NCBI GenBank assembly: GCA_023374045.1
Contig: CM041779.1
Span: forward strand, 273,357,258 to 273,421,257
Origin: Limonium bicolor
Taxonomy: Eukaryota > Streptophyta > Magnoliopsida > Caryophyllales > Plumbaginaceae
Reading direction: 5' to 3'
Length of the DNA stretch: 64,000 bases
Under the pieces are notes generated by a model. The model was not told the origin of the DNA. It did not search any database and saw only the letters and a list, made by a program, of their open reading frames with translations. Shown here piece after piece: positions 16,695 through 49,311 of the stretch. Both the position numbers and the translations under genes were made by a program. Every line of letters starts with the position of its first letter. Position 1 is the stretch's first letter.

Positions 16695-19600
16695 CTATTC
16701 TATGAATAACTGTGGGTACTTCGCCTTCATGGCGTCTTCTAACTCCCATGTCGCTTCTTCGACATCATGGTTTAACCATAGGACCTTCACCATTTGTATG
16801 GACTTATGGCGAGTGTCTCTGGTCTTCCAATCAAGGAATCTAACGGGAGTTTCAACATATCTCATTGTTGGCTCAATGGATAGTCTCTCAGGCTCTAGGA
16901 CATGAGAAGGATCAGCAATATAGTTCTTGAGTTGTGACACATGAAAGACATCATGGACACGCCCCAAGTCCTCAGGTAGTGCTAACCTATAGGCTACAGA
17001 TCCAACTCTCTCGGTGATAGTGTACGACCCTACAAACTATGGACTCAGCTTGCCCTTATAGCCAAAACGGAATACGCCCTTCATAGGTGAAACGCGCAAG
17101 AACACTTGGTCGCCCACGGTGAACTCAAGGTCGCGTTGTCGCACATCCGCATAGGATTTCTGTCTATCTTGGGCTGCTTTCATGTTAGCTCGAATTTGTT
17201 ACACTTCCGCTTGGACTTGTTCTAAATACTTCGGTCCTATGATGACCGTTTCACTTGACTCATCCCAACACAAGGGTGTACATCAAGGTCTACCGTATAG
17301 GGCTTGGAAAGGCGACATCTTAATCAAAGCATGATAGCTATTGTTGTACAAAAACTCGATAAGATGAAGCTTATCTAACCAACTCCCCTGAAAATCTAAG
17401 GCACATGCCCTAAGCATGACCTCCAGTGTCTAGATGGTCCTCTCTGTCTGACCGTCGGTCTGAGGATGGAAGGCGGTACTCAGCTTCAATTCTGTACCCA
17501 ACGATTCCCGTGTAGCTCTCCAGTATCTCGAAAGGAATCTGATGTCGCGGTCAGATACTATGGTCTTCGGGACTCCGTGGTGTCTGATAATCTCCATGTC
17601 GAATAGCTCTACGAGCTTCACTACCTTCCAGGTGTCCTTCATCGGTATGAATCTGGCAACCTTGGTGACGCGATCGTCTACAACCCAGATCATGTTGAGT
17701 CCTCCCCTAGCAGGGGGAGTCCTACAACAAAATCCATGGAGATATCATGGAATTTCCACTCCGGAACTGGCATCGATTGTACCATTCCGCCCGGTCTTTG
17801 ATGTTCAAACTTCACTTTCTGGCACGTCAAGCATCTCAATACATACTCTGTCACATCTGATTTCATTCCTGACCACTAGAAGTACCTCTTCATGTCTTTG
17901 TACACTGGAAGCTCCTGGGGAACTGACAATGTAGAACTGTGTGACTCTCGCAGGATGCGATCCCTTAGCTCAGCATTGCTTCGGGGGACGCATAGCCTGC
18001 CATTCAGCCGAATCAGACCATCTTCATGCAACTTAAAATCATATTTCTTCTTCTCAAATATACCATCTATGACCTTCTGTCTAATTTTGGTCAGGTAAGG
18101 GTCGCTCAACTGAGCGTCTCGCACCTCTTCAACCAAGCTAGAAGAAGAGAGTAGCGAATGGAGCAAGTGTGCTCGACGACTCAGGGCGTTGGCTACAACG
18201 TTTGCCTTCCCTTCCTTATACTGCAGGTTGATGTCGTAGTCTAAGAGAAACTCCATCCACCTTCTCTGTCTCAAATTCAACTCTTTCTGCGTGAATACAT
18301 ACTGTAAGCTCTTGTGGTCGGAGTAGATGGTGATGCTTACCCCATAAAGATAGTGTCGTCATATCTTCAAGGCGAAGACAATGGCTCCTAGCTCTAAGTC
18401 ATGAGTCGGGTAATTCTCCTCATGCTTTTTCAGCTGGCGGGAGGCATAAGCTACAACCTTACCATGCTGCATGAGTATGCATCCCATTCCCTTGCTGGAT
18501 GCGTCACAATACACCTCAAATCCCTCTGTGCCCTCTAGAAGTGTGAGAATCGGCGCTGAGGTCAAAGAGTCTTTTAGGCACTGGAATGATACTTCGCACT
18601 CGTCTGTCCATACAAACGGTGCATCTTTCTTCATCAGTGTAGTCATGGGCTTAGCGACTTTCAAGAAGTCCTTTACAAATCTCCGGTAGTAACCGGCTAG
18701 ACCAAGAAAGCTCCGAATGTCGGTAACAGTCTTGGGTCTAGGCCATGATCGTACAACTTCTATCTTAGAAGGGTCAACTGAAATACCTGCGCTCGAGATG
18801 ACATGACCAAGGAATGATACCTGATCTTGCCAGAACTCGCATTTGGAGAACTTCGCATACAGCTGGTTCTCGCGCAGTGTCTCAAGTACTTTCCTCAAAT
18901 GAATTTCATGCTCTTCTGCTGATTTGGAGTACACAAGGATATCGTCGATAAATACTACTACTGAGGTGTCCAACTACTCACTGAATAGTCGATTCATTAA
19001 ATCCATGAATTTTGCTGGTGCGTTTGACAACCCGAATGGCATGACGGTGAATTTGTAGTGGCCATATCTGGTACAGAATGCCGTTTTCTTGATGTCTTGC
19101 TCTCTGATAGCAATCTGATGGTACCCAGAACGGAGGTCGATCATGGAGAAGACTTAGGCTCCCTTCAGCTGGTCGAATAGGTCGTCGATGCACGGCAATG
19201 GGTATTTATTTTTGACTATGACCGCATTCAACTCGCAATAGTCAATACAAAGTCGGAGGCTACCGTCATTCTTCTTCACAAAGAGGACCGGTGCTCCCTA
19301 GGGTGATACGCTCGGGCGTATAAACCCTTTGTCGAGAAGGTCACGTAACTACTCTTTCAGCTCTGTCATTTCCGCAGGTGCCATACGGTATGGTGCCCTA
19401 GCAATGGGACTAGTACCTGGCAAGAGGTTAATCTCAAACACTACTGCTTTTCGAGGTGGCATACCAGGCAGCTCCTTAGGGAATACGTCAGGGAATTTAG
19501 ATACAATTGGTACTTCGGGGTTGAACTCTGGATCTCTCTCCAGGTCTTGTACATAACACAAATACACTTCATGGCCCTTTTCGAGCTCCCGGTACATAGC

Positions 19601-20070
19601 CATAGCGGAGATGACTGTGGTCGAAGGCTCCCTCGGTCTCTGGCGGTAAGATACGGTAACCCCAGAAGGACTCCTGAGCAGCAATCGATGCTCGGCGCAG
19701 AGGAATCTACCCTTGTGCCGCTCCAACCAATTCATTCCAACTATTACGTTGAATCCCAACCCATTAAACTCGATGAAGGAGATGGGAAACGCTTCGCCCT
19801 TGATTTGGATCGTGGCTGATTTGTAGTATTTGGTACATCGTATTTGCTCCTTCGACGGGAGAGTAACCAAGAAGTTTGGCAACTCATCCGCATCTAGCCC
19901 CAACCTCTTCACGAAAGATGGTGATACGAAGGTGTGAGAGGCGGCAGAGTCGAATAACACTAAGGCTTTAATGCCGTTCACTGAGAAGGTTCCTATTAAG
20001 ATGGTGCCGCTTTTACCGGCTTGTGCTTTGGTGAGGATACTCATGTTACCTTCGGTACCGAGTCCACAAC
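16695..20070 (-). pseudogene. B1 pol: protease, reverse transcriptase, RNase H, integrase, chromodomain
   Basis: Domains in order: retropepsin with LFDSAASHTFVS (about 19945), where the usual DSG or DTG is DSA; reverse transcriptase from [13 protein letters not shown] (19390) through [11 protein letters not shown], the YVDD-equivalent (about 18950); RNase H with [13 protein letters not shown] and [13 protein letters not shown] (18390-18540); integrase zinc-finger region and core (18280-17430) with VSDRDIRFLSRYW and HPQTDGQTERTI; integrase C-terminus and chromodomain with VLWLNHDVEEATWELED (16967-16695). The frame starts just after a splice-acceptor-like AATAG at 20071. There are in-frame stops near 19350, 19300, 19155, 18973 and 18357, a 1 nt loss near 17710, and further breaks. 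The copy is inactive. Close relatives in this window are E (plus strand) and B2. Confidence 0.9.
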
Positions 20071-20211
20071 CTATTGAAGTCACAAGTTCATAAGTAATAA
20101 TGGTGGACATAAATGGAATTTAAATCAACACTACTCTTTATTGATAAACCAACCATCATACATATCGCGTCTCTAATACACATTAATAATACATTACATG
20201 ATACTATGATT
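20071..20211 (-). promoter_or_regulatory. B1 AlkB-pol spacer ending in a splice-acceptor-like site
   Basis: Between the AlkB stop (20212-20214) and pol there are about 140 nt. The spacer contains CAATAAAG on the minus strand and ends TGTGACTTCAATAG at 20071, immediately before the protease reading frame. E has the same arrangement (40682-40800, ending CATAACTTCAG). This suggests that pro-pol is made from a spliced RNA. That is an inference; no transcript is available. Confidence 0.45.
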
Positions 20212-20922
20212 TTAATACTTTCTAAAGGTAAGGTTCAGGCGTCCTGGCTTCATGTGTGTGGCATTGATTATTGCTGGTGGTGTCGTATTCAACTTGATCT
20301 TGTTGATCCCGTGATACAGCAACCTAGATTTTCCACCCATGATTAGGAACATCTCTTGATCTCAATACCAATTTCTCTGTGCGTCCACGCGGCTTCTGCT
20401 CGCTATACAAAATACTCATCATCACCTATGGACCAAGACATTACGGAGTCCTCCTTGTTCACTAATTCTGCTGTCTCGTTCCTTGTCTTGGTGTAACCCA
20501 AGTCGTCTTTCTTTCTCATAGAAGTTGACGATACAAAGGTCCACTTCAATTGCAGGGATCGGATCATTTTCACATTGTTGTGCAAGTTCTACTGCTTGTG
20601 TGACAAGCGTCTGAAATTCTGGGGGTATTGTCGGTGGCGTCGCTCCGTCTTGCATCCGTGTCTCTTGGTATGTCTTGGTATAAGGATTCCAGTCCTTTCC
20701 TAAGCATATCATCTTCAGCTTCATCTTCGATCCACCAGGGAATTTGGGTGTATAAAATCCTCTTGGACCCGTTCCTAGCTCGTTGCATCGTCGGATGATT
20801 GGTCGGATGGCCTGACACTGCTCACTGGTGTAGTAGTGATTGGTGATGTCGGTCTCTTCTTGATTTGGGTTTGAAGGTATCAGGTAGCAGATATTAAAAC
20901 TACCTATGGTTGTAAATTTCAT
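20212..20922 (-). pseudogene. B1 AlkB-like Fe(II)/2-oxoglutarate dioxygenase (ALKBH1-like)
   Basis: AlkB enzymes remove alkyl groups from nucleic acids using Fe(II) and 2-oxoglutarate. The frame opens with ATG at 20922, directly after an intron-like acceptor CGTCGTAG. Seen in order: RGFYTPKFPGGSKMKLKMICLG and KDWNP (substrate-lid region of ALKBH1-like proteins, 20670-20780), VDLCIVNFYEKERRLGLHQDKE with the Fe-binding H-x-D (His 20491-20493, Asp 20485-20487), SWSIGDDEYF, GGKSRLLYHGINKIKLNT with the distal His (20311-20313), and the C-terminal PGRLNLTFRKY with the two Arg that bind 2-oxoglutarate, ending TAA at 20212-20214. The full set of motifs fits an intact ancestral domain of about 235 residues. 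At least three frameshifts (around 20455, 20400 and 20350) break this copy. It sits between gag and protease. A host-gene insertion is unlikely because E has the homologue at the same site. Confidence 0.88.
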
Positions 20923-21057: not shown

Positions 21058-22529
21058 CTAGGCCAGACTTAGAGCCGGTCCCATCTCGGTCGATAATGTG
21101 CAAGGCGGGATGCCTCAGGGTGCGCCCTTCTGAGGACCTCGGGATCCCTGTCCCTGCGGGGCCTGCTTGGCTGGAGCATCGCCAGATGCAACCTCCTTGC
21201 CTTCCCTCTACTTGTAGCTCTGGAAGTTCCCTTTGGGCTTGGCATTTTCTGGGCACATGTTGGCTCGGTGTCCCGGTTTCTGACAGTTGTAGCACCGGAT
21301 TTCTCTCCCTTGGCAATCCTTGTCGGGATGGTCTTGGTTGCATCTTCTGCATACATAGCTGCGGCCGTCGGAGTAGTTCATGTTATAACCGGAGCCAGAA
21401 CCTAAGGCTTAGAGTGTTAGCACATTTGTGCGGGAATACTAGGTATGATAATTATATGAATACAAGTTTAGATTAGAAGTTTACCCTTAGGTGGGTGTGA
21501 TCTCAGTGGCTTTGCAGCCACCGGCGCAGAAGAACCTAGCTGAAGAAGCTCAATTGGGTTGCCCTTCTTAGCATGGGCACTGCTCTCACTTGGGGAGTTC
21601 TTTGATTAGGTTTGCTGAAAGAACTTCCCTTTCTTCTTTTTCGAGCTCTTACCTTGGTTCTGGTCCTCGGCACTGGTGTTTTTGCTGTTGGCCTTGCGCT
21701 TAAGCGATGTTTCTTCATCCCTCAGTTGGCAAGTGATCTCAACGCGAGATGCCGCGTGATAGCACTCCTGAAGTTTCAAGTATTAGCCGGGATTCTTACT
21801 TGAAAAAGATAAAGGTAAAGTATTTACAATGGTACTAAGGGTTTAACAGATATTTACCTGAAGAGAGGTAAATCTGGTGTAGCCCATGCCGTACCGAAGG
21901 CGATGGCTCAGACCGCCGTAGAAGCGATCGACCAACACCTGGCCGGTGTACCCAAGGTCGGGTAAAAGACGAAGGAGAGAGGTGAAGGTGCGGTAGTACT
22001 CATCGACAAACATCTTCTCTGTCATTTTCAAGGCATCAAGCTCTAGTCTTTTCTTTGTTTTGGCATGTTCCGGATAGAAGTATTTGGATCGAGGGAGGGC
22101 TGTGAAGGATTCCCAGTCGAATGTAGGATCGTTGACATGCTCGTTTTTAACTAATTTCCACCAATCCATGGCTGCATCCATAAGGTAATAAGCCGCTACT
22201 CTAACTCGAATTCCGGCAGGAGCTTCGAGGGTTTCAAAGGCTGTCTCCATCTCGGAGATGTAGGCTTCTAGCTTAGCCGGATCACTCTCGCCTCGAAAGC
22301 ATGGAGGTCAGAGTTCCGCTACGGATTTTACCCAGTTCGCTTCTCTGGGTGGAGGGGGAGGGATTGGTCCTGTTTGAGTTTGTTGGTTTTGTTGTTGGGT
22401 TCGTTGCATTGCCATGATTACTTGAGGTAGCATCTGCGCTACCGTGGCGGCGACGATCTCTGCTATCCTCTGCGCGCCTGGTCCATCAGAAGTCTCTCTT
22501 CTAGGTCGGCCTCGACCACGTCCTGACAT
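21058..22529 (-). pseudogene. B1 gag, three exons with two intron-like gaps
   Basis: Gag forms the virus-like particle and packages RNA. Exon 1 (22529-21858) starts MSGRGRGRPRR directly after TTCAG and holds the retrotransposon gag domain (YYLMDAAMDWWKLVKNEH, FVDEYYRTFTSLLRLLPDLG), with one stop after VKSVAEL. A 90 nt gap with GTAAAT..CTTCAG (21857-21768) precedes exon 2 (21767-21485), which starts ECYHAASRVEI, is Lys/Gln/Ser-rich and has one TAA. An 83 nt gap with GTAAAC..CTTAG (21484-21402) precedes exon 3 (21401-21058), with two zinc knuckles CRRCNQDHPDKDC and CYNCQKPGHRANMC. Two of E's gag gaps start and end at the same residues, which supports real introns. The exon 3 tail contains stops, so whether B1 gag fused to AlkB cannot be decided. 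Confidence 0.82.
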
Positions 22530-31817: not shown

Positions 31818-33429
31818 TGAAATACCCCAAACCTTGATATGTTATTTAAATGTTAAACTATGGTATATAAAGGCTAAAAAGTGCCTTAGAAACATCAGTG
31901 AACAATTTAAGCCATAGTAAAACACAATAAAACACTAAGACTCAGTTTGAGCAAAAACATGCTCTAAGCTTGGAGTGAACTTGGTTGGGACCCAAAGAAC
32001 CTACCAAGACTAAATAATATTCAATTATGATTTAATAAGGCTAATTAAGTCCTTAGGAAACTTTGGTAGACAGTTAAACCAAACAAAACACAAGAAAATA
32101 CCTTAAAGTCAATAAGAGCAAAATGTGCTCTAAGCTTGGGATAAATTTGTATAAGACCTAAAGGTCATACCTATACCTTATAAATATGTTTATGAACATA
32201 TTAAACCAATTACCAAAGAAAACCAAGCTTGAAAACAAGTTAAAACACAAAATGTGCTTTAAGGAGTCTTAAAGCACATTTTTGAAAAATTGTCTTGTAA
32301 ATGAGTTTTGAATGGCTAAATGTCCATCACTACTCTTTAATTAACATGTGTACTACTTAGTATCACATTTGGAGGTCTAAATCAATGGGAAATCAAAAAT
32401 TTCACAACTATGTGTCTTGTTTTTGTGAATAGTATCTAAAATATGCAAATTTATAACATAAGTCAATATAAGTAAGTTAGCTGGTCAACAAAGACCAAAC
32501 TACCCCTAAGTAGATGATGGGGGCCGGTTTTATCAAGGTGAGTCACCACCTTGTTAGTTAATAAGTAAATAAGTAATGAAAAAAGCAAGTAAATTCACTA
32601 TTTACTTTATAACATAAATATCTTAACAAAGTGCACTCTCTCACCTCATTCTCTTCTTCCCTTTTCATTTCCCACGGTTAGCCATCTTCTTCCTCCACTC
32701 TCCAACGGTTTGCTACAGCCATATACCATTCTCCATCTTGGAATGCTTGTAACTCATGACTCCATGCTCCAAATTCAATTTCAAGACCACCTTTGTCTTA
32801 GTTGAGTCAAGCCCTTCAATTCTATCTTTTCAAATCTTCAAAAGCCTCATTTCGGTGCCATGAAGATTCACCATTGTTGGAGCTTGAGCTTACCTTTTCA
32901 TGCCATGTTATTCTCCTTTGCTTCAAGGTAAGGAAAGTCAAAGAAAAACTTCATTTCCTTTTGTTTTCATAAGTGACCGAAATCACCTTCTTCATGGTGT
33001 TTTCTTTTGCTTTGTTCTAGCTTCATTCCAACCTTTCAAGGGCTTGGTGGAGACCTCTCTTGTTATATATTCAAGTTCTCTTTCAAATTCAAAGGTAAAT
33101 ATCATTTTAGTGTATTAAAACACTTATGTTAAACTAGGGTTTGTATATGAGTTTAAGTGTGAATTCTTAAGCTCATTACCCTTATATGTATATTGATTAG
33201 AAAGTTGACAAGTGATCAAACTCCTTGCTGATTTTCGGTATAAGGAAACAAGAAAGAAGTTTGAGAGGAAAAGAGGTAAACAAACTATCTCAATGTAGTT
33301 TAAATGCCTTAGGAAAAATGAGCTTGATTTGCTTAATAAAATACCTAAGGAGCCAATGGTGAATGACCAAGTAAAATGCTCTCAAGGAAACTATTAAAGG
33401 GCATATGTGTTGTTGTATGTAATTGCAGG

Positions 33430-34863
33430 TAAATACCCCTAACCTTTAAAATATAATTAAACGATCTATTAATGATCTAAGATGATTAATAAACATCTAA
33501 ATATTATTGGGGAACAATCTAAAAGATCTCAACAAGGCAAAACACGCCTTAAGATCGGTAAAGCCAAAAATGTGCTTTAAGACACCATAAAGATTGTGTG
33601 ACCTCAAATAGGATCCAAAGTGGATTCCTAAGTATTATAATAAAGTAATGAACACAACAAAACCGTTCTCAAGGAGAACTAAGCTCAGGAACACCCTGTG
33701 ACACAAAAATGTGCACTAAAACACCTTAAAGCACGTTTTTGTGAGATTGTCTTATAAATTGATTTTTAATGGGCTTAAAGATTATAATTACCCTTAAATA
33801 TGATATTTTATCATATTATATCATATTAGGAATTTAATTCCAGAAATTTACGAATTTTTACAAATTTAATATTAAAATATTAATAAAACCCTAAAGTGGG
33901 GCCCGCATGAGTCAAATTGACCAAGTATGGTCAATGGTCAAGTAATGACCCATTTGACCTCAAGGAAATCGGCTGGCAAGAGGGGAGGAGACAGCATACA
34001 ATCATTGTTGGACAACTTATACCTAATACCATTTACTTTTGAAAATTTACTTACTTTTTCAATTATTTCCAACCTTTCCCACCTCCTCCTTCCTCCTTGT
34101 CCGATCCCAGCCTCTCCAACCGAGCTCCTCTCCTTCCTAGCAGCTCTCAAGCCTTGTTCTTGAGCATGGAAGGCAGATCTAACTCCTAAGCTCTTAAGGT
34201 AAGTGTTTTAAGGTCATTTTTAGCCCTTTTTCTTCATCTCTTCACTACCTACACTTAGATTTCGTGGCTCATCTGTTCCTATGGCTTATTCTCAGTGTTA
34301 TAAGGTTAGAAAAACTTCCAAACTCGGTTGAGACAAGTAGAGGGACCAAGGTTGCTCAAAATTGCATTTTAAGGTAAAAACATACCTTAAGCCTCTCCAC
34401 TCTACATCCGGTTTTCTTCCTTGAATTTTTATGAGTTTATACACTCATAATCTTCATATTTACATGTTCATTCAGTTGGTTAGCCATTTGGAGCAAGGGT
34501 GGCCGAGATCCAAGAGAAATACTCTCTTTTAAGGCATTTTTCCAAGGTAAAACCTAATAACAAGGTAACTTGTTGTGATCTAGCTATTTCCTATGTCAAT
34601 ATGGTGGATCTAACACCTTATGGTGTGTTTGATTCAGGCCGAATCCACCTAGAACTTCCCTTGCATTTTAAGGTGATTTTTGCCTTAAATCTTACATTAA
34701 TTATTCCTTATGGTTAAGCTCAAGCTTGGAGCGTAACCATATCTTGTTTTTGTGTATTAAACATGTCTAAATGAAGTGGTGAATTTTCCTACAAGTGACC
34801 GAGCCCATACAAGGATAAATCAAGGTATAAACACCTTAAACTTATGATTTTTATAATTTCTAA

Positions 34864-34902
<39 letters not shown>

Positions 34903-37900
34903 CGAGAGTGAATTATAAATGGGTCATATTGACCTAAAAATGGAAAAAAATGACTAAGATAAATTAAGCTAGTCATTTAAGAGATTTAATTAACATAATG
35001 GTCAAATTATGACATTATGTGGAAAAATAATTAAATCAAGGTGAGGCCGAGAATATATGCTATATTTTGAGACATTTATTGTGTAATTTATTTTGCAAGT
35101 TCAAGGTTGTAATAAGGCCATGTCATTAGGCCATTTTAATTTAAGTTTATAAGCTTATTTAGTTTTATTTATGCTCATGATTAAAATTGGGGCCAATTCG
35201 TAATTACTAGGAAATTAGAAAGTCGTGGGCTTAATTTAGAGCAATTTAGGGTTTTTAAATGAATTTAATAAAAATTATAACATTTTATAAAGTTTTGGGT
35301 CAAAATTGTAAAAATAGAAAAGTATAGGTTATTATTAGTGATTACCGAAAAATTGGTTCCCATTTGGTATTAGAAGTCAAAGTTGACTATATAGGAGACT
35401 TTGACCAAGTTTGAAATTTAAGAAATTAAATACTATCTTATATAAGACTTATTAATTGTGAAAGATTTTAAAATGGGGCTATAATGTAATTCCGAGACTT
35501 AGGGGTATAAATGGAATTTAGAATAATCCTTAAGTTATTAGGAATTTTTAGAAGTTTATTTGGTTAAATTTGGAGTTATGAATTATATAAGTATAATATA
35601 TGGTAATTTTATAACATTGTTACAAATGGGTAACAAAGGTTGAAAACCGAGATTTAAAGGAAGTAAGGTTAGGAATAATATTTATAACCTTTGGTATAGT
35701 TTGGTAATTTTTGGAATGTATATAAGGTTTTATAAAGATATATATAATATATAGTTTAATGGAATTAGAAAACTATGTATTATAAATTGGGATTGAATTG
35801 TGATTTTATAGAAGTTTAGTGGTTATAGTAAACCGAAAATATAAGGGGCTGTTTGGTATTTTATAAACAAATATAACTATAGGTTATAATTGTTTTAATG
35901 ACTTAAATGTCATAATATATGTTATATAACTATAATGTAACATTATATTAATTAAGTGGTGGATTTTGTAAATATTTAAGAACATAGGTGCTGTTCGGAA
36001 ATATTAACATTTTTAAATGGAATTTATAATATGGTTTTTAATGTTATAAGAGTTATAACATTTATAATATAAGAGGTATTCATTAAAAAGAATGAATAGA
36101 TTATAAGACTTACCATATAATAAATAGTTCCATAATCACACATATAAATATATGTAATGGTGTAGAAAATGATATGGTTCAATACTATAAATTATCATTA
36201 ATTAAAATGATAATAGAAAAAAAGAAGAATCATAAACATTAGATTGGAAATTCTAATGTTGAGTATACATGGGATAATAAGGATTATTATAAAGTTTGTT
36301 ACAAATGAATTATACCACATTGAATTTAAAAAAAAACAAACCTTAGAAAAATAAATACTAAGGTGAGATGCATAGTGCATGACAAAGATCACACATGCAA
36401 TAATGAAACAAACTGTATGATAAACAATTAAGTTACATGCGATAACAAGTTCATCAATAAGTATATTAATATACAAGACAAACTACGCATGTAATATAAC
36501 ACTTTTCCAATCTCGAGTTAAACCTAAAACCCGACAAACAATGATAGTTAATAACGGGGGTTAACCGGGAGGTGTTAGTGACGGTACGGGGTACCGTAGA
36601 ATTGTGTTGTTATACGGTATGCTAATCAGTAGCATTATGTATTGTTTAGACTGCTAGAGACTACACAAGGAGCATAGGATCTTGCTGATTCATACTCCAC
36701 CGCAATACATCAGGGTGAACGGTATGTTGTTATGTGTCTCTGATTGTCTCTGAGGGCTTCCTCAGTTCAGACTTCTGTGTGATCTGTGATAAGATTGTTT
36801 GTCTGAATGTGATAATTAATATGCATGAATTGTATATTTATAGCTGCTTATTATTACTGTTGTTGAGTTAACAGTATCGGTTCGTATATATGGACCAATA
36901 TATATAAAACGAACTAGCGGCTATAGTGCTATCTTATATGAAATATAAGGATCGTCAGAAAACGTTGTAGCACTAGGATAATAAGATATACATATTATCC
37001 GAGACTTTTATACGGAGCATTGGCCTTTCTATACGCCGCTCTCGTATCTAACACTGGATCCCGAGTTTACAGACTCCGGATTGGACTAATGACCTTAGTC
37101 TGCTGTGTTAGGAAAATTTGGTAATGCGATGCGATGGAAATTAATTAATTAAGGAAGGAAAGTAAAGCCAAGAGGATGTGGCTCTTGGTGCGCGCTGTGA
37201 TCACAAAAACGATACCAGGATGTCCGCGTACGGGTCCGCAAGTATCAAGAAAATTTCCCGTGAGCTAGAATGGCTCGTTGGTCGGAGACTCTACCGTTGG
37301 AGTGGCTACTGCCGTGGGTGACCCGCCATAATATATGGGTAACTAGAGACATGTCGTTTTAACGAGACATTGTCACTAGGTATAACTGAACAAATAATAC
37401 AGTTAGAATTATACAGTGGCGAACGATATTGGTTTCTACACCATGGACGAGAACTAGTACTTGTTTATTATTCTCGTTGTTTCGCTTGGTTGTTCATTGG
37501 TTATACTTGTGGTTATATTATATGTTGATGGTTGTGTTTTGTATGGATATTACTGTTAATTGTTTTACAGTTTTAAATATTAAAACGGTATTGCATGTAA
37601 TGAACCTCATGCTCTCGACCAAATAATTGAGGGGTCTTTGGGGGCATGACGGGGCATGTGATGACATACTCAGCAGGGGCTGATTCCATACCACAAACCA
37701 TCTTTATTGCAGGAGACTGGTGGGTCGACGCAGCGCGACTATGTATATTGTTGTTAGACTTGGTACGGTGTGATACTAGGGTTTTGGACTCGGGTTGTTT
37801 AACCGAGGTGTATTTGGTTTAGATGCTCACGGTCTGTAATAATTGGTTGATGTTGATTTGTTTTAAATTGTTTAAGTACTACTATCTATCTCTTGTGGTC

Positions 37901-38067
37901 ACTGCGGGAATACGTTTCGCAAGTTGATTATCAGGTAATCGTTATCACCCGTATGGGCGAGTGATAACAGTGACACCATTAGGGCGACAGTTTTATTTAC
38001 CGCTGCGAGTATTATTGTGCGCGACATTTATAGGATTATTAGGAGCCGAATTAGTAGGGGTGTTACA
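33430..38067 (+). repeat. E 5' LTR
   Basis: 4,638 bp, TAAATACCCCTAACC to GTAGGGGTGTTACA. It matches 44680-49311. It contains a TA microsatellite (34866-34899; ten bases shorter in the 3' LTR at 46086-46109) and CTCAGCAGGGGCTGA near 37670, followed by CTTTATTGCAG. The rest is AT-rich with no gene. Confidence 0.95.
34866..34899. repeat. TA microsatellite in E 5' LTR
   Basis: About 17 TA dinucleotides. The 3' LTR copy at 46086-46109 has about 12. Confidence 0.95.
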
Positions 38068-38071
38068 AAAG

Positions 38072-38083
38072 TGGTATCAGAGC
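38072..38083 (+). other. E primer binding site (initiator tRNA-Met)
   Basis: TGGTATCAGAGC, 4 nt after the LTR end. Bases 38076-38097 form a near-perfect hairpin, ATCAGAGCGG-AGTA-CCGCTCTGAT, overlapping most of the PBS. B1 has the same arrangement. Confidence 0.93.
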
Positions 38084-38275: not shown

Positions 38276-39814
38276 ATGTCTTCTGGGAGGCGATCAGCAG
38301 GTAGAGGAGGTGGTGGAAGAGGCGGCGGGCCTGGAGCAGGTCCTCCGGGGCCCCAGCCGTGGGCGTGGCTGAGACGGTAGCTGCCGTCTTCGCTCAGCTA
38401 GCCCAGATGGGAGGTATCCACATAGGAGCACACCACCTGCACCACCGGTAGTCCCACCCGTACCCGCACCTAGAGAGCCGAATTGGCTGAAGAGCGTAGC
38501 TGACACGCGAGTACCTACCTATGATGGAGTTGCTGACCCCACTGTCCTGGAGAGATACATTGTTGAGCACGAGAAGGCCTTCGATGCCATACATGTGCCT
38601 GCTGAGCACCGAGTCGATATAGCAGCCTTTCACCTGAAGGACGCTGCCAGCACGTGGTGGAGGTCCGTGAAGGCACATTATCTTGCTATAGAGGGTTTTG
38701 GATGGACTGGTTTTGTGGAATTGTTGAGAGAGAAGTACTATCCTGCTCATTTGAAGCAGAGGAAGAGGGAGGAGTTTGAGGCCCTGAGGCAGGGTAGTAT
38801 GACAGTAGATCAGTACTACTCCTTGTTTATTGGGCTCTTGGACTTCGTCCCAGGAGTTGTTTTTCTGATGCTGTGAAGTAGAGAATTTAGAGGCGGGTTG
38901 AGATATGCTATTAAGGCCGCCATGGGTGCTACCTTGTACCCTACGGTCCAGGTAAAATTAATTGACAGTTTGTACCTTTAACTCAGTTTGATTTATTACA
39001 AGTTCGGGGAACTCATTGATGTATTACAGGAGTGTTATGACGCTGCTTCTCGGACTGAGATGATGGTGAACAGCCGGGAGGACGGCCAGGGGCAGAAGCG
39101 TAAGGCCCCAGAGAAAGGCGGAGACTGAGGCTGGAAGCGGAGGCAGTAAGGGCTGGAAGTAAGAACCACCTTAAGTTATTTAATCCATTTAAATTACTTA
39201 CTTACTGCCTGCTTTTATACCTGCTATTCCTGACACTTTGACGATCACAGGAAGAAAAAGTTCTCCTGGAGGGGAAGAAGAAGGAGCAGGCCAGCCAAAA
39301 GGGTAAGGACAAGGTCCCGTGCTGACCGGGCCTACCTACGATGTGCAGCCTCTTAGATCTGTACCCCCTAAGGGTAAGCGATCTAACCTTGTGAATAAAT
39401 TGAGTACTACACTACCCATTACCATCCTTGTACTAATCTGAGTGTGATATGATAATAGGTTCTGCACCCCAGCGCCACTTTCACTGCAAGCGCTGTGGTA
39501 AAGACCACCCGGGTGTCGACTGCACCGGGCAAGCGGTGGACTGCCACCATTGTGGAAAGAAGGGCCACAGGTCGTTCGAGTGCTTTGCTAATCCAGACAG
39601 CCGAGCGTACCGCCCGCAGAAGGGGACTCAGAGCGCACCTACTGGAGGAGGTGGAGCTCGAGGTGGCCAGAGGGGGCCGGCGCCCCAAGCCCAGAGAGGG
39701 CAGCGGCATCAGCAGCACAGCAGCAGAACCAGAACCAGAGGAACCCGCCGGGCAACCGTATGCTGAATGCAGCGGGAGCTTCAGGCGCTGGCACTAGTAC
39801 CCAGCGCGGTGAAG
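38276..39814 (+). pseudogene. E gag, spliced, with two zinc knuckles
   Basis: Starts MSSGRRSAGRGGG at 38276. Exon 1 (to 38951) carries the gag domain (VDIAAFHLKDAASTWWRSVK, LREKYYPAHLKQRKREEF, MTVDQYYSLFIGLLDFVPG) with a few single-base breaks. Intron-like gaps: 38952-39029 (GTAAAA..TTACAG), before ECYDAASRTEM; 39159-39250 (GTAAGA..TCACAG), absent from B1; 39374-39458 (GTAAGC..AATAG), after PLRSVPPKG. The last exon from 39459 holds the knuckles CKRCGKDHPGVDC and CHHCGKKGHRSFEC, then a Gly/Gln/Arg-rich tail. Donors at 39809 or 39815 with the acceptor at 39944 would join gag to the AlkB frame without a stop. The first and third gaps match B1 in both position and codon phase. Confidence 0.82.
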
Positions 39815-39944
39815 GTTAGCATTTGAAACCTTAACCATTGTATGAAAGCATGACTAAGTGTTAAACGCTTTACCTTAGCATGAATGTGTGTTTAAGTTAC
39901 CGCTTTAGATGAAAAACTTACCTAGGAAACCTTTTACCTCTTAG

Positions 39945-40681
39945 GAGACTTCGATATCCGCTATCCCACACTTACAAGACAGAGATCACCTAGACCCGTG
40001 GAAGAAAGACGGGAGTACCCTAGTGAGTTGTGTCATGTAGTCAGACCGGGCATGATACTTCTCAGAGAGTTCCTAACCCTAGATGAGCAAATCACCATAG
40101 TGAATGAGTGTAGAGCTTTGGGTAAGGGCATAGGAGGTTTTTATACCCCTGTATTTAATAGTGGTTCTAGAATGAAACTGCACATGATGTGCTTAGGGAA
40201 AGATTGGGATCCACAAGCTAGGGTTTATCGAGAGGTGAGGATGGTAGGTGACATCTATACCTAGGATACCTGAGAGTTTCCTTACCTTGGTGAGAAACGC
40301 AATGGATATTGCTCAAGACTGTGAGACTTATCCATTACCCGACATGACACCTGACGTTTGCATCATCAACTACTATGAGCAGGGAGGAAAGCTTGGAATG
40401 CACCAGGACCGTGATGAGACGACCGAGTCCATCACCAGAGGAATACCGGTTGTGTCATTCTCCATCGGCGATGATGCTGAGTTTATCTATGGAGACCAGA
40501 AGAGGATGGATCTAGCAAGCAAGATCATCCTCAAGTCTGGGGATGTGTTGGTATTTGGTGGAGAGTCGAGGCTTGTATATCATGGTATTAAGAGCATTAA
40601 GCTCAATACCGCACCACCAGCCTAGTGAATGATACCCACATCCGACCTGGCCGTTTAAATTTGACTTTCAGACAGTACTGA
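39945..40681 (+). CDS. E AlkB-like Fe(II)/2-oxoglutarate dioxygenase (ALKBH1-like), two 1-nt breaks
   Basis: AlkB family dioxygenases demethylate or repair DNA or RNA. Order of motifs: PGMILLREFLTLDEQITIVN (N-terminal fold), GIGGFYTPVFNSGSRMKLHM, MCLGKDWDP (40090-40215), SFLTLVRNAMDIAQDCE, DVCIINYYEQGGKLGMHQDRDE with Fe ligands His 40401-40403 and Asp 40407-40409, VVSFSIGDDAEFIYGDQKR, GDVLVFGGESRLVYHGI with the distal His at 40581-40583, and PGRLNLTFRQY with the 2-oxoglutarate-binding Arg, ending TGA at 40679-40681. The pattern matches plant ALKBH1/abh1-like proteins better than ALKBH9/10 types (from memory of the families). One-base losses near 40255 and 40624 are the only breaks. Against B1 it is roughly 50-60% identical by eye over ungapped stretches, with every catalytic residue kept. 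It probably acts on element RNA or cDNA in the gag particle; that role is inferred. Confidence 0.9.
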
Positions 40682-40800
40682 TGTAATATAGTAGCTAAGT
40701 GTGTAACCTTGTATAATACAGTTGGAATGAATGAAATAAGAGTTTTACCTTCAAGTATATGTGTTCAGTTTTGTTGATACCGATAATTCATAACTTCAGG
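40682..40800 (+). promoter_or_regulatory. E AlkB-pol spacer ending in a splice-acceptor-like site
   Basis: 119 nt between the AlkB stop and the pro-pol frame, with a pyrimidine-containing end CATAACTTCAG at 40800. B1 has the equivalent site. Neither element offers a simple read-through from AlkB into protease, so a separate spliced pol message is the likely route (inference). Confidence 0.45.
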
Positions 40801-43800
40801 CTATAGAAATGGAAAGGAGGGTACCATCTGCATCCTAGACATGGCGCAAGCCAAGGAGTCTGGTAATGTCATCACAGGTATGACAATTACAAACAACAGT
40901 AAATTAGTGATTTATTGGGACTCGATGCTAATACGAGAGGTGATCTCAGGTACCTTTCCTATTGATGGTGTTAGTGCTTCCGTATTGTTCGACTCAGGGG
41001 CTTCGCATTCTTTTATTTCCTCGGCATTTGCTAAGAAGCTGGGGGCCACCCCCGAACAGCTTTCAGACTTTTCAGTCACCCTTCCTTCGAAGGAGAAAGT
41101 AGGTTGCACCAGACAGTATACAGGGTTAGAGATCAGCATTATGACTGAGACCTTCCCCATTGATCTGATTGAGTTCAAGAACTTGGGTTTTGACATCATA
41201 GTGGGCATGGATTGGCTACAGAAGCATAGGGGCCGCCTTCATTGTGCAGAGCATCGACTACTACTGAAGGGGCCGAGCGGCAGACAGTGTCATACCGCAG
41301 TGTGAGGAGAGAGCCGACTGTCAAGATCGTGTCAGCATTGTCCCTGATGAAGGATGTTAGGAAGGGCCGACAAGCCTTCCTCTGTTATGTACAGGACACG
41401 AGACAGAGCGACGTGACGGACGTAGACATTCCAGTCGTGGTAGATTTTCCCGACTTATTTCCTGATGAGCTGCCAGGCATGCCGCCTGTGCGCGAGGTTG
41501 AGTTCGCCGTCGACTTGTTGCCAGGTACGGGCCCATTGCTAAGGCACCCTACCGTATGGCACCGGCTGAGATGAGGGAGCTGAAGCTACAGCTGGAGGAC
41601 CTCCTCGACAAGGGATTCATTCGACCTAGTGTTTCTCCTTGGGGTGCTCCAGTGCTGTTCGTCAAGAAAAAGGACGGCAGTATGCGACTCTGCATCGACT
41701 ACCGCGAGCTTAATGCGGTTACAGTCAAGAACAAGTACCCATTACCACGGATAGATGATTTATTTGATCAGCTGAGAGGGGCCAGTGTGTTCTCGAAGAT
41801 AGATCTCAGATCTGGCTACCATCAGATTAGGATTGCAGAGGGTGATATTGAGAAGACAGCTTTCAGGACACGGTATGGACACTACGAGTTCACCGTTATG
41901 CCATTCGGATTGACGAATGCGCCAGCCATATTCATGGATTGATGAACCGTCTTTTTAGAGAGCATCTTGATAGTTCAGTTGTAGTCTTCATCGACGATAT
42001 TCTGATCTATTCAAAGACCAAGGAAGATCATGAGTTACATTTGAGACAGGTGTTGAATATTATGAGAGAGAACCAGCTGTATGCCAAACTCTCTAAGTGT
42101 GAGTTCTGGTTGGACAGCGTGTCATTTCTAGGACACATTATATCAGCTAGCGGCATATCTGTAGATCCTGCTAAGATTGAGGCAGTGAAGAGTTGGCCAA
42201 GGCCGAAGACAGTCACAGACGTCCGTAGCTTTCTGGGTTTGGCAGGGTATTATCGAAGGTTCGTAAAGGACTTATCCAAGGAGGCTAAACCGATGACTAA
42301 TCTAATGAAGAAGGAATCCCAGTTCTTATGCTCTGCAGAGTGTGAGCAGTCCTTTCAGACGCTGAAGGATCTCCTGACATCGGCGCCCGTTCTTACTATC
42401 CCTGAGGGCACCGATGGGTTCGAGGTATATTGTGATGCCTCTGGAACCGGTCTAGGCTGTGTGCTTATGCAGCACGGGAAGGTAGTTGCTTACGCATCCC
42501 GACAGCTGAAGAAGCATGAGGTGAATTACCCCACACACGACCTTGAGTTAGGCGCAGTAGTCTTCGCTTTGAAGATCTGGCGACATTATTTGTATGGTGT
42601 GACAGTCACTATCTACTCTGATCACAAGAGTCTACAGCATCTCTTCTCTCAGAAGGAGCTGAACATGCGACAGAGAAGATGGGTCGAGTTCTTGAAGGAC
42701 TACGACATAGACCTGAGGTACAAAGAGGGCAAAGCAAATGTAGTTGCCGACGCCCTGAGCCGCAGAGCTCATTCATTATTTACACTAGTAGCGAGCAGCA
42801 GTATGATTGATGAGATACGAGCTGCTCAGGAGAGTGATCAGTATTTGGAGAGCATCAAACAGAAAATGTCAGAGGGTTGTTTTGAGAGACAGAAGTATGA
42901 TTTCGAACTGTGTAATGATGGCATGTTACGACTGAATGGCCGATTATGTATTCCGGAGTCGTCTCCTGATCTGAAGGAGAAGATACTCCAGGAGGCTCAT
43001 TGCTCGTCCTTATCCGTCCACCCTGGTTCTTCGAAGATGTATAAGGATTTGAAGGTTCATTTCTGGTGGAGCGGGATGAAGAAGGATGTAGCTGAGTACG
43101 TGGCTAGATGCTTGACCTGTCAGAAGGTTAAGTTTGAGCATAGGAGACCCGGAGGTTTAGTGCAGTCTATGCCTATTCCTTGTTGGAAGTTCGAGGACAT
43201 CTCGATGGATTTCGTTGTCGGTCTCCCACCGACTAAGGGAGGACTGAACACGATTTGGGTCATTGTGGACCGTCTGACGAAGGTGGCAAAGTTTGTTGCT
43301 ATGAAGGATACCTGGAACGTCCCGAAGTTAGCGGACTTGTTCCAGAAGGAGGTGATCCGGCACCATGGTGTGCCAAAGACTATTGTTTCTGATAGGGACC
43401 CTCGATTTTTGTCCAGATTCTGGGGACAGGTTCAGGAAGCCTTGGGTACAAAGTTGAAGCTTAGTACGGCGTTCCATCCACAGACCGACGGTCAGAGTGA
43501 GAGGACCATCCAGACACTGGAGGACATGCTGAGAGCATGTGCCTTAGATTTCAGGGGAGTTGGTTAGAGCGTCTACACTTGATAGAGTTCGCCTACAACA
43601 ACAGCTACCACTCCTCGATACAGATGCCACCATTTCAGGCACTTTATGGTAGACCGTGTAGGACTCCTTTATGCTGGGATGAGGCCAGCGAGACTACGCT
43701 TCTAGGACCTGAGTACCTAGAGCAGATTAAGGAGGATGTCCTACAGATTCGAAGAACATGAGGGCAGCTCAGGACCGGCAGAAAGCATGCACACCAAGAG

Positions 43801-44237
43801 GAGGGACATTGAGTTCACTACCGACGATATGGTATTCCTTAGAGTGTCACCCATGAAGGGATATTCCGGTTTGGGCAGAAGGGCAAGTTGAGCCCAAAGT
43901 ATGTTGGACCTTATGCGATTAGGGAGCGAGTGGGCCCGTTAGCCTACAGACTGGATTTACCAGCAGAGCTCGGGAGGGTGCACAACGTCTTTCACGTTTC
44001 ACAGTTGAAGAGTATGTGCCCCATCCATCGCACGTTTTGCAGCCAGAGACTTTAGAGTTGGACCCCGCTCTACGATATGAGGAAGTACCACTCCGCATTC
44101 TCGATACGAAGACGAGGCAGACTAGGAACAAGACCGTTAGCATGGTCAAGGTTCTCTGGTCGAACCATGAGGTGGAGGAGGCTACATGGGAGTTAGAGGA
44201 CTCCATGAGAGCGAAGTACCCAGCACTCTTCGAGTAG
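40801..44237 (+). pseudogene. E pol: protease, reverse transcriptase, RNase H, integrase, chromodomain
   Basis: Retropepsin with VLFDSGASHSFIS (about 40984-41022); reverse transcriptase from [15 protein letters not shown] (41560) with [21 protein letters not shown] and [11 protein letters not shown] (41981-42015); RNase H with [26 protein letters not shown] and [13 protein letters not shown] (42419-42600); integrase zinc finger with H..H and CLTCQKVK (42996-43136); integrase core with [22 protein letters not shown] and [12 protein letters not shown] (43205-43520); C-terminal domain; chromodomain with VLWSNHEVEEATWELEDSM (44145-44210), stop TAG at 44235-44237. The catalytic residues of all enzymes appear intact. 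The frame is broken by single-base losses near 41285, 41540, 41940, 43556, 43757, 43858 and 44010, most in homopolymer runs. Only these small breaks separate it from a complete polyprotein. Confidence 0.92.
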
Positions 44238-44665: not shown

Positions 44666-44679
44666 TAAGGGGGGTAGAC
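44666..44679 (+). other. E polypurine tract next to 3' LTR
   Basis: TAAGGGGGGTAGAC directly before the LTR start TGAAATACCCC. Confidence 0.88.
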
Positions 44680-47600
44680 TGAAATACCCCTAACCTTTAA
44701 AATATAATTAAATGATCTATTAATGATCTAAGATGAGTAATAAACATCTAAATATTGTTGGGGAACAATCTAAAAGATCTCAACAAGGCAAAACACGCCT
44801 TAAGATCGGTAAAGCCAAAAATGTGCTTTAAGACACCATAAAGATTGTATGACCTCAAATAGGATCCAAAGTGGATTCCTAAGTATTATAATGAAGTAAG
44901 AACACAACAAAACCGTTCTCAAGGAGAACTAAGCTCAGGAACACCCTGTGACACAAAAATGTGCACTAAAACACCTTAAAGCACGTTTTTGTGAGATTGC
45001 CTTCTAAATTGATTTTTAATGGGCTTAAAGATTATAATTACCCTTAAATATGATATTTTATCATATTATATCATATTAGGAATTTAATTCCAGAAATTTA
45101 CGAATTTTTACAAATTTAATATTAAAATATTAATAAAACCCTAAAGTGGGGCCCGCATGAGTCAAATTGACCAAGTATGGTCAATGGTCAATAATGACCC
45201 ATTTGACCATGGAAATCGGCTGGCAAGAGGGAGGAGACAGCTACAATCATTTGGACAAATTATACCTAATACCATTTACTTTTGAAATACTTACTTTTTC
45301 AATTATTTCAACCTTTCCCACCTCTCCTTCCTCCTTGTCCGATCCCAGCCTCTCCAGCCGAGCTCCTCTCCTTCCTAGCTCTCAAGCTTGTTCTTGAGCA
45401 TGGAAGGCAGATCTAACTCCTAAGCTCTTAAGGTGTTTTTTAAGGTCATTTTTAGCCCTTTTTCTTCATCTCTTCACTACCTACACCTAGATTTCGTGGC
45501 TCATCAATTCCTATGGCTTATTCTCAGTGTTCTAAGGTTAGAACAAACTAAACTCGGTTGAGACAAGTAGAGGGACCAAGGTTGCTCAAAATTGCATTTT
45601 AAGGTAAAAACATACCTTAAGCCTCTCACTCTACATCGGTTTTCTTCCTTGAATTTTTATGAGTTTATACACTCATAATCTTCATATTTACATGTTCATT
45701 CAGTTGGTTAGCCATTTGGAGCAAGGGTGACCAGATCCAAGAGAAATACCTCTTTTAAGGCATTTTTCCAAGGTAAAACCTAATAACAAGGCTTGTTGTG
45801 ATCTAGCTATTTCCTATGTCAATATGGTGGATCTAACACCTTGTGGTGTGTTTGATTCAGGCCGAACCACCTAGAACTTCCCTTGCATTTTTAAGGTGAT
45901 TTTTGCCTTAAATCTTACATTAATTATTCCTTATGGTTAAGCTCAAGCTTGGAGTGTAACCATATCTTGTTTTTGTGTATTAAACATGTCTAAATCAAGT
46001 GGTGAATTTTCCTACAAGTGACCGAGCCATACAAGGAATAATCAAGGTATAAACACCTTAAACTTATGATTTTTATAATTTAAGCATATATATATATATA
46101 TATATATATGGCCGAGAGTGAAATTAAATATGGGTCATATTGACCTAAAAATGGAAAAAAATGGCTAAGATAAATTAAGCTAGTCATTTAAGAGATTTAA
46201 TTAACATAATGGTCAAATTATGACATTATGTGGAAAAATAATTAAACCAAGGAGGCCGAAATATATGCTATATTTTGAGACATTTATTGTGTAATTTATT
46301 TTGCAAGTTCAAGGTTGTAATAAGGCCATGTCATTAGGCCATTTTAATTTAAGTTTATAAGCTTATTTAGTTTTATTTATGCTTATAATTAAAATTGGGG
46401 CCAATTCGTAATTACTAGGAAATTAGAAAGCCGTGGGCTTAATTTAGAGCAATTTAGGGTTTTTAAATGAATTTAATAAAAATTATAACATTTTATAAAG
46501 TTTTGGGTCAAAATTGTAAAAATAGAAAAGTATAGGTTATTATTAGTGATTACCGAAAAATTGGTTCCCATTTGGTATTAGAAGTCAAAGTTGACTATAT
46601 AGGAGACTTTGACCAAGTTTGGAAAATTTAAGAAATTAAAATACTACTTATAATAAGTATTATTAATTGTAAAGATTTATAAAATGGGGCTATAATGTAA
46701 TTTCCGAACTTGGGGTACTAAATGGAGTTAGTAAAACCTTAGTTATTAGGAATTTTTAGAAGTTTATTTGGTTAAATTTGGAGTTATATGAATTATATAA
46801 GTATAATATATGGTATTTTATAACATTGTTACAAATGGGTAACAAAGGGGTGAAAACCGAGATTTAAAGGAAGTATAAGGTTAGGAATAATATTTATAAC
46901 CTTTTGGTATAGTTTGGTAATTTTTGGAATGTATATAAGGTTTTATAAAGATATATGTATAATATATAGTTTTAATGGAATTAGAAAACTATGTATTATA
47001 AATTGGGATGAATTGTGATTTATAGAAGTTTAGTGGTTATAGTATAACCGAAAATATAAGGGGCTATTTGGTATTTTATAAACAAAATATAACTATAGGT
47101 TATAATTGTTTTAATGACTTAAATGTCATAATATATGTTATATAACTATAATGTAACATTATATTAATTAAGTGGTGGATTTTGTAAATATTTAAGAACA
47201 TAGGTGCTGTTCGGAAATATTAACATTTTTAAATGGAATTTATAATATGGTTTTTAATGTTATAAGAGTTATAACATTTATAATATAAGAGGTATTCATT
47301 AAAAAGAATGAATATAGATTATAAGACTTACCATATAATAAATAGTTCCATAATACACACATATAATAAATATATGTATGGTGTAAAAATATGATGGTTC
47401 AATACTATAATTTCATAATTAAAATGATAATAGATAAGGAGAAAAGAATCAAACATTAGATATGGAATTCTAATGTTAGAGTATACATGGGATAATAAGG
47501 ATTTATTATTAAAGTATTGTTTACAAATGAATTATACCACATTGAATTAAAAAAAAACCCTTAGAAAAAAAATACTAAGGTGAGATGCATAGTGCATGAC

Positions 47601-49311
47601 AAAGGATCACACATGCAATAATGAAACAAACTATGATGTACAAACAACATTAAGTTACATGCGATAACAAGTTCAACAATAAGTATATTAATATACAAGC
47701 AAGACTACGCATGTAATATAACACTTTTCCAATCTCGAGTTAAACCTAAAACCCGACAAACATTGATAGTTAATAACGGGGGTTAACCGGGAGTGTTAGT
47801 GACGGTACGGGGTACCGTAGAATTGTGTTGTTATACGGTATGCTAATCAGTAGCATTATGTATTGTTTAGACTGTTAGAGACTACACAAGGAGCATAGGA
47901 TCTTGCTGATTCATACTCCACCGTAATACATCAGGGTGAACGGTATGTTGTTATGTGTCTCTGATTGTCTCTGAGGGCTTCCTCAGTTCAGACTTCTGTG
48001 TGATCTGTGATAAGATTGTTTGTCTGAATGATAATTAATATGCATGAATGTATATTTATAGCTGCTTATTATTACTGTTGTTGAGTTAACAGTATCGGTT
48101 CGTATATATGGACCATATATATAAAACGAACTAGCGGCTATGGTGCTATCTTATATGAAATATAAGGATCGTCAGAAAAACGTTGTAGCACTAGGATAAT
48201 AAGATATACATATTATCCGAGACTTTTATACGGAGCATTGGCCTTTCTATACGCCGCTCTCGTATCTAACACTGGATCCCGAGTTTACAGACTCCGGATT
48301 GGACTAATGACCTTAGTCTGCTGTGTTAGGAAAATTTGGTAATGCGATGCGATGGAAATAATTAATTAAGGAAGGAAAGTAAAGCCAAGAGGATGTGGCT
48401 CTTGGTGCGCGCTGTGATCACAAAAACGATACCAGGATGTCCGCGTACGGGTCCGCAAGTATCAAGAAAATTTCCCGTGAGCTAGAATGGCTCGTTGGTC
48501 GGAGACTCTACCGTTGGAGTGGCTACTGCCGTGGGTGACCCGCCATAATATATGGGTAACTAGAGACATGTCGTTTTAACGAGACATTGTCACTAGGTAT
48601 AACTGAACAAATAATACAGTTGAGAATTATACAGTGGAGAACGATATTGGTTTCTATACCATGGACGAGAATTAATACTTGTTATTGTTCTCGTTGTTTC
48701 ACTTGGTTGTTCATTGGTTATACTTGTGGTTATATTATATATGTTGATGGTTGTGTTATTGTATGGATATTACTGTTAATTGTTTTACGGTTTTAAATAT
48801 TAAAACGGTATTGCATGTAATGAACCTCATGCTCTCGACCAAATAATTGAGGGGTCTTTGGGGGCATGACGGGGCATGTGATAACATACTCAGCAGGGGC
48901 TGATTCCATACCACAAACCATCTTTATTGCAGGAGAGTAGCTGGTGGTTGACGCGAGGCGCGACGGTTGTAATATATTGTTGTTGTTCAAGACTTGGTAC
49001 GGTTGGTACTGATGATGTTTGGACTCGGGTTGTGTAACCGAGGTGGATTTGTTTTAGATGCTCACGAGTACGGTCTGTAATAATTGGTTATGTTGGATCT
49101 GTTTTAAGTTGTTTAAGTTCTACTATCTATCTCTTGTGGTCACTGCGGGAATACGTTTCGCAAGTTGATTATCAGGTAATTCGTTATCACCCGTATGGGC
49201 GAGTGATAACAGTGACACCATTAGGGCGACAGTTATTATTTACCGCTGCGAGATATTATTGTGCGTGACATTTATAGGATTATTAGGAGCCGAATTAGTA
49301 GGGGTGTTACA
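44680..49311 (+). repeat. E 3' LTR
   Basis: 4,632 bp, TGAAATACCCCTAACC to GTAGGGGTGTTACA. It matches the 5' LTR with few substitutions and many short indels. CTCAGCAGGGGCTGA is repeated near 48889. No gene. Confidence 0.95.

Follow-up and report, generated by a model that had tools for sequence, protein, structure and literature searches.

How does a retrotransposon come to carry an AlkB-type dioxygenase between its gag and pol genes, how could the enzyme be made, and what might it do there? The question is raised by element E, a Ty3-type long terminal repeat (LTR) retrotransposon of 15.9 kb (33430-49311) in a stretch of 64,000 nucleotides of Limonium bicolor contig CM041779.1, which we analysed at its full length and call the window. 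Our data point toward an ALKBH1-type exon that the lineage of element E captured and has long kept. We favour, with moderate confidence and as a reading of the sequence, that this is an alternative last exon and that alternative splicing would yield a Gag-AlkB fusion that brings the enzyme into the particle.

The distal piece of the AlkB region of element E matches PF13532 (2OG-FeII_Oxy_2) with an E-value of 4.5e-31 (109 bits; cut-off, 31.2), and the signatures HQDRD (HQD in a preliminary description of this locus), YHG, and RLNLTFR are all there and in this order. The proximal piece alone matched no family in the Pfam search. Intact copies from elsewhere in the genome score 152.9 bits (L012) and 155.3 bits (L004) against the same cut-off, with an E-value of 1.6e-44 in an intact copy, and the match starts at about the conserved methionine of the motif RPG-MILL, residue 42 of 252. 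In an alignment of 36 rows (8 element and 28 host sequences), the iron-binding residues H160, D162, and H220 are invariant and R244 and R250 are conserved in at least 90%; the cofactor residues HxD...H and RxxxxxR, as defined in PMC9289625, are present. An AlphaFold model of the element AlkB (predicted local distance difference test score, 87.6) has rice OsALKBH1 as its best structural match (template modeling scores, 0.82/0.91; 50% identity), with an E-value of 1.2e-28 in the fold search, compared to ~4e-8 for ALKBH5. OsALKBH1 is also the nearest solved relative by sequence, and the named database relatives, among the matches listed, are plant ALKBH1-like proteins. The NCBIfam AlkB equivalog models match as well, all below their cut-offs. 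The element AlkB is thus assigned to the ALKBH1 type by its best matches in sequence and fold. The ALKBH5 type, as present in orchid elements, was considered and rejected, since OsALKBH1 is the best match by both measures.

That the domain lies between gag and protease of a complete and flanked LTR element, as described before, is borne out: the Pfam matches place gag (PF03732) upstream of AlkB and protease (PF08284), reverse transcriptase, RNase H, and integrase downstream, and element E has both LTRs, a target-site duplication, a primer binding site, and a polypurine tract.

33425..33429 (left) and 49312-49316 (right), no strand: target-site duplication GCAGG, read in the sequence
33430..38067, plus strand: 5' LTR of element E, 4638 nt
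38072..38083, plus strand: primer binding site TGGTATCAGAGC, complementary to the 3' end of initiator tRNA-Met
38276..39373, plus strand: gag exon 1 (capsid, PF03732), with a putative start ATG and the donor AAGG/GTAAG at its end; broken in this copy
39374..39458, plus strand: putative intron 1 (GT...AG), phase 1 as read in other copies
39459..39814, plus strand: gag exon 2 with a CCHC zinc knuckle (PF13917, under its cut-off) and the donor GTGAAG/GTTAGC at its end
39815..39944, plus strand: putative intron 2a, spanning gag donor to AlkB acceptor (CTCTTAG)
39945..40681, plus strand: AlkB exon, assigned to the ALKBH1 type and closed by a stop of its own (TGA, 40679-40681); the frame is broken here and open in other copies
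40682..40799, plus strand: spacer with TGTA motifs and the poly(A)-signal-like words AATGAA/AAATAA; pol acceptor AACTTCAG at its end
40800..40877, plus strand: first exon of protease/pol
40878..40949, plus strand: putative protease intron, which copy L009 lacks at this point
40950..43567, plus strand: protease, reverse transcriptase, RNase H, and integrase, frame-broken
43923..44237, plus strand: chromodomain-like end of pol (weak PF00385)
44667..44679, plus strand: polypurine tract AAGGGGGGTAGAC
44680..49311, plus strand: 3' LTR of element E, 4632 nt

The LTRs, the 5-bp target-site duplication, the primer site, the polypurine tract, and the order gag-protease-reverse transcriptase-RNase H-integrase are hallmarks of Ty3 elements. 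The integrase match to PF17921 is above the cut-off; that to PF00665 (rve) is below it (28.6 bits versus 32.6). Of the previous label "Ty3 chromovirus," the first word stands; for the second, the chromodomain match is weak and lies below its cut-off (PF00385, 21.0 bits versus 25.1). We place the lineage among plant Ty3 elements, probably the chromoviruses. The two LTRs differ by a Kimura two-parameter distance of 0.032 in a MAFFT alignment, which corresponds to 1.2-2.5 million years under two assumed rates. BLAST counts fewer mismatches (78 or 98 in ~4,700 columns, depending on the gap cost), and the element may therefore be younger. The domain had been described as lying in one frame; it is present, but not as a single open frame. 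Its reading runs through 39945-40261, 40248-40622, and a third stretch that ends with RLNLTFRQY-stop at 40679-40681, and the copy as assembled is therefore unable to yield a full-length enzyme. L034, the nearest of the fetched copies, shows 4 mismatches and 7 gap columns against it over 1.5 kb; hence, part of the frame breakage may be assembly error. Over window positions 39800-41300, gap columns about equal or exceed mismatches in several close copies, L034 among them. This excess may reflect assembly indel errors, so that frame breaks in any single copy have to be read with care.

Is the arrangement peculiar to this one copy? To sample the surrounding genome (2.92 Gb in 2686 contigs) without reference to AlkB, we searched it with the protease of element E alone, which gave 30 loci including the window's own, all of them close relatives of element E. 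AlkB is present in every one (133-252 of 252 residues matched). An assembly chimera, or a host gene that landed by chance in a single element, might have been imagined, as a host ALKBH1 gene exists in the same genome. However, the domain recurs in the 29 other loci, in several subfamilies and intronless, and the element AlkBs are 59-77% identical between subfamilies compared to 45-58% to host proteins; a single-copy accident is thereby refuted and retains next to no probability. Absence from other copies and a single assembly chimera, two conditions under which the preliminary description would have fallen, are both contradicted. Searches with AlkB itself (queries P0003 and P0008, two database proteins) scored 150 and 141 places, respectively, of ~50,000 unverified first-look candidates each. 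Most of these places sit in an open frame of ~251-253 codons; as top scorers, the loci taken from these searches favour intact copies. Among the places listed, identity to the queries is only 73-77% (P0003) and 68-74% (P0008), and the two proteins therefore seem to come from other species. In the IMG/VR contigs searched, two stretches fitted the pattern and no relative was found.

Has the enzyme been maintained? Among nine intact AlkB exons, the ratio of nonsynonymous to synonymous substitution rates (dN/dS; Nei-Gojobori method, NG86) is 0.055-0.25 where silent sites are unsaturated; between the two big families, silent differences reach 0.74-0.83 and are saturated. Over 75 usable pairs from 23 copies the median is 0.17 (interquartile range, 0.13-0.23), far below the value near 1 from the time of capture that, by the preliminary description, would have refuted its reading. 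Across subfamilies that differ by 0.65-0.83 at silent sites, the exon has retained its exact length and its motifs. In the single comparable pair (L009 and L014), the proportion of nonsynonymous differences (pN) in AlkB is 0.144 at a synonymous proportion (pS) of 0.71, and in the protease pN is 0.20 at a pS of 0.73: AlkB is at least as constrained as the protease. Protease comparisons with L012 were left out, its protease being frame-broken in the stretch used. The pattern is that of purifying selection.

Some observations speak against a maintained enzyme, and several of them are what one would expect of a functionless passenger that was caught once, copied along, and is now decaying. The window copy is frame-broken. 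Of the protease-found AlkB exons, 23 of 30 were scored by script, and 20 of these are broken and 3 unbroken; among the seven unscored loci, six are broken or short, and the exon of L043 lies in one open stretch of 249 codons. The highest pairwise dN/dS is 1.08, and the copies compared were top scorers of the AlkB search and hence biased toward intact ones. The small gaps that are as frequent as substitutions between close copies, as in L034, fit decay as well. Yet many of the 150 protease-matched places likewise have short open frames in pol, and the low dN/dS together with the conservation of exon length led us to reject the passenger, which we consider very improbable.

The host ALKBH1 gene of the same genome (L029, L030) has introns after EQV and after LGLHQ, and both are missing from the element AlkB exon; a spliced ALKBH1 messenger is therefore the likely source, through an old cDNA capture. 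A tree of 38 rows groups all ten element AlkBs into a single clade (100/100; recovered in 100% of 200 bootstrap trees), and the 28 host proteins, the one encoded by this genome among them, fall outside it. A quicker tree of 129 rows with 13 element rows agrees with the single element clade; a long-branched Orobanche protein stands at its stem there, but not in the 38-row tree. Four rows of the clade (P0003, P0004, P0008, and P0009) derive from public contigs. In three protein searches (5 rows, the best 120 of 2557, and the best 120 of 2994), no other protein had more than one of three element markers; among the matches listed, the host-like P0022 and P0080 bear one each. The earlier suggestion that a host ALKBH1-type gene was captured thus gains support from the best matches, the relatives, the tree, and the lost introns, and we conclude that the lineage probably took up such a gene long ago as a cDNA with its 5' end cut. 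The genome's own ALKBH1 gene, 60-70% identical to its best-matching proteins, marks the host as a eudicot. Host-type ALKBH1 was seen at three places (C3:704083, C3:133828275, and C3:132821382; L029, L030), the first two of which have identical last exons though they lie 133 Mb apart on one contig.

How could the enzyme be expressed? The splice architecture, like the second AlkB element of the window, the age, and the frame breaks of element E, goes beyond the preliminary description, whose start for the domain, 39945, directly follows the acceptor-like CTCTTAG. We read 27 copies, that is, the 28 AlkB-found loci minus L018, for which the script picked no frame as it is broken in two pieces. In intact copies AlkB has a stop of its own (RLNLTFRQY or similar), and its frame runs into neither gag nor pol. 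An AG precedes this stop in 27/27 copies, at -737 nt in 24 and at -736 nt in 3. The 34 codons before the conserved methionine are partly conserved (FDICYP..RPG) and in phase with this acceptor, and no in-frame ATG lies upstream of that methionine in 21/27 copies; the remaining 6 have one, at varying points. The donor that closes the zinc-knuckle exon of gag reads GTTAG, GTAAG, GTAAC, GTACC, or GTAAT, depending on the subfamily, and a second AG, the pol acceptor, opens the frame before the protease. All three sites, the gag donor and the acceptors of AlkB and of pol, have phase 1, as determined by script for L012, L009, and L014 and by eye for L004, L002, and the second element of the window. 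Gag-AlkB and Gag-Pol would therefore both be in frame. The same gag donor recurs, and a pol acceptor stands at the matching position, in all 23 protease-found loci with a matched AlkB acceptor (7 of the 30 were not matched), and an in-frame pol acceptor was recovered for 25 of the 27 rows, the exceptions being L026 and L028.

Lengths agree with this layout. The AlkB exon has 737 nt and is gap-free among L012, L009, and L014; in the same copies, intron 1 has 77-85 nt, intron 2a 119-133 nt, and the spacer 107-137 nt, and the four noncoding stretches vary in length, with 9-27% gaps. Length and gaps set the AlkB and protease exons apart from the introns. Nucleotide identity failed to do so, being 0.65-0.76 everywhere (shuffles, 0.58-0.64). 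The protease intron (72-80 nt; window 40878-40949) is present in L012 and L014 and absent at the same point in L009; such presence and absence between subfamilies fits true introns. Behind the AlkB stop, at least two TGTA motifs followed by an AATAAA-like word within 90 nt occur in 27/27 copies, compared to 2.6 expected from dinucleotide shuffles, and TGTA and poly(A)-like words also stand there in both window elements. The conserved in-phase AG, the lack of a conserved ATG, and the poly(A)-like signals together indicate that Gag-AlkB and Gag-Pol are probably made by alternative splicing.

This layout, too, has observations that weigh against it. The AlkB acceptor is one base off phase in 3/27 copies. 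Gag exon 2, which is coding, also has 9-16% gaps, so that an intron cannot be told by its gaps alone. The poly(A)-like words were picked after the sequences had been seen, in 27 copies that are related. In the first 34 AlkB codons, third positions account for 19/36, 24/48, and 14/38 of the changes in three subfamily comparisons, an excess that is clear in two and absent in one. These codons bear on a different reading, in which AlkB is no tail of Gag but a free enzyme whose translation starts, either by re-initiation or on a short RNA, at the internal methionine of RPG-MILL. The PF13532 match starts at about this methionine, the database protein P0003 is predicted to begin there, a further upstream in-frame ATG exists in the 6 copies mentioned, and in the orchid element AlkB has an open reading frame (ORF) of its own (PMC9289625). 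However, the codons before the methionine are partly conserved in phase with a conserved acceptor, which a free start would leave without use; we hold a free enzyme to be unlikely.

In our model, a plant Ty3 lineage, probably of chromoviruses, would have captured a spliced ALKBH1 messenger, intronless and cut at its 5' end, and retained it since. The single donor that follows the gag zinc knuckle could be joined to the AlkB acceptor or to the pol acceptor. The first choice would give Gag-AlkB with its stop, and polyadenylation probably right behind AlkB; splicing past AlkB would give Gag-Pol. AlkB would then enter the particle as a tail of Gag, beside genomic RNA and single-stranded cDNA, and might demethylate the RNA packaged there or the newly made cDNA, or clear them of alkyl damage. 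ALKBH1 is reported to act on N6-methyladenine (6mA) in DNA and to prefer single-stranded or unpaired DNA (PMC10469495), and nascent cDNA is therefore a plausible substrate; N6-methyladenosine (m6A) or N1-methyladenosine (m1A) in RNA and alkylation repair may equally be its use. The same report, which covers 6mA demethylation by ALKBH1 and a rice ALKBH1 mutant studied in chromatin, would also fit a different target: the element enzyme might act on host nucleic acids (6mA in chromatin or host RNA) to loosen silencing, and not on the RNA or cDNA of the element. As fusion to Gag would put AlkB in the particle, we regard a host target as unlikely. Our full proposal, that the coat protein is made as a Gag-demethylase fusion whose enzyme edits or repairs the genome in the particle against methylation or alkylation, and that this is conserved across subfamilies near saturation, is a tentative one, about evenly balanced with a slight lean toward doubt.

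The window holds further elements of this kind. By tblastn, a second AlkB, 39-45% identical, lies on the minus strand at ~20.2-20.9 kb, between gag and protease of another element.

20212..20903, minus strand: AlkB exon of the second, diverged element; broken, with the acceptor CAACCATAG before it and a stop and AATAAA behind it
21846..22307, minus strand: gag piece of the second element
19352..20119, minus strand: part of the protease of the second element, with the end of the pol acceptor CTTCAATAG at ~20071

A third AlkB element is cut by the window end (61085-64000, minus strand). Its AlkB lies just beyond, at 1492-2279 of the fetched locus L063, with 55-60% identity in two main pieces, and where a chromodomain was looked for, its stretch 61194-61784 matches PF24626 only. 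Direct repeats that are ~95% alike are found at 11231-15020, 22707-26747, 30900-31816, and 52149-54439, pairing piecewise and in differing orders; around the second AlkB element this suggests nested or rearranged LTR elements. The gag of another retroelement (PF03732; 29016-29819, minus strand) sits between the repeats 25022-25919 and 30900-31816.

The preliminary description took AlkB to be unheard of in such elements. This does not hold: an AlkB-bearing Ty3 element, of another lineage and another AlkB class, was published in 2022, and it was the only fitting report on AlkB in LTR retrotransposons in the accessible literature, which comprised few subscription papers and no preprints. In that report (Alvarado-Marchena et al. 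2022, PMC9289625), Phalaenopsis Ty3 elements (Gypsy_Pa_2799 and kin) carry an ORF for a 2-oxoglutarate-dependent dioxygenase (2-ODD/AlkB) with m6A RNA demethylase activity in vitro; they belong to the Ogre/Tat lineage and have a tRNA-Arg primer site, their ALKBH5-type domain occupies an ORF2 of its own (565 amino acids), and the capture is called recent and was seen in only two Phalaenopsis of the 121 genomes screened. An LTR retrotransposon with AlkB is thus already known, and the present elements are set apart by their lineage, enzyme class, age, and layout. Both systems are Ty3 LTR retrotransposons that kept a captured host AlkB-family gene through amplification to high abundance, with demethylation as its presumed use. 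Our elements have the order gag-protease-reverse transcriptase-RNase H-integrase(-chromodomain) and, at TGGTATCAGAGC, what we presume to be an initiator tRNA-Met primer site in place of tRNA-Arg, an enzyme assigned to the ALKBH1 type, probably as an alternative exon that separates gag from pol, in place of ALKBH5 in an independent ORF, near-saturated silent sites between subfamilies, and a eudicot host; enzyme activity was shown there and is predicted from sequence here. Since lineage markers and AlkB class differ, the capture here appears to be a separate one. If so, different lineages of plant LTR retrotransposons have acquired AlkB at least two times, from two host AlkB classes, and such repeated uptake would point to methylation or alkylation of element nucleic acid as a real constraint on retrotransposition, for which an old and abundant lineage provides natural replicates for testing. 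Gag-AlkB by alternative splicing, if true, would be a new route for a host enzyme into a retroelement particle.

With plant ALKBH1C/1D and OsALKBH1 (PDB 5xeg/5xoi) the element domain shares sequence, fold, iron- and 2-oxoglutarate-binding residues, and the RLNLTFRQY-stop C terminus; it differs in lacking the host N terminus and introns and in forming its own clade on a long branch. Plant RNA viruses also have AlkB in the coding sequence of a replicating parasite, there in an RNA virus and here in an LTR retrotransposon. In these viruses the domain is located inside the replicase. The families concerned, as named in PMC9289625, are Alpha- and Betaflexiviridae and Closteroviridae. For the proposed expression, a report on the Ty1-Copia element EVD of Arabidopsis describes splicing coupled to premature cleavage and polyadenylation, which gives a short gag mRNA (shGAG) and excess Gag (PMC8892269). 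The spacer behind AlkB likewise looks, by its signals, built for premature polyadenylation beside gag-pol; EVD is a Copia element whose short RNA encodes Gag alone, whereas the short RNA here would encode Gag-AlkB. In Ogre, partial splicing of a gag-pol intron controls pol expression (PMC6317226), and splicing of the putative introns may serve the same control here, with the difference that the intron lies between gag and protease and has a coding exon inside.
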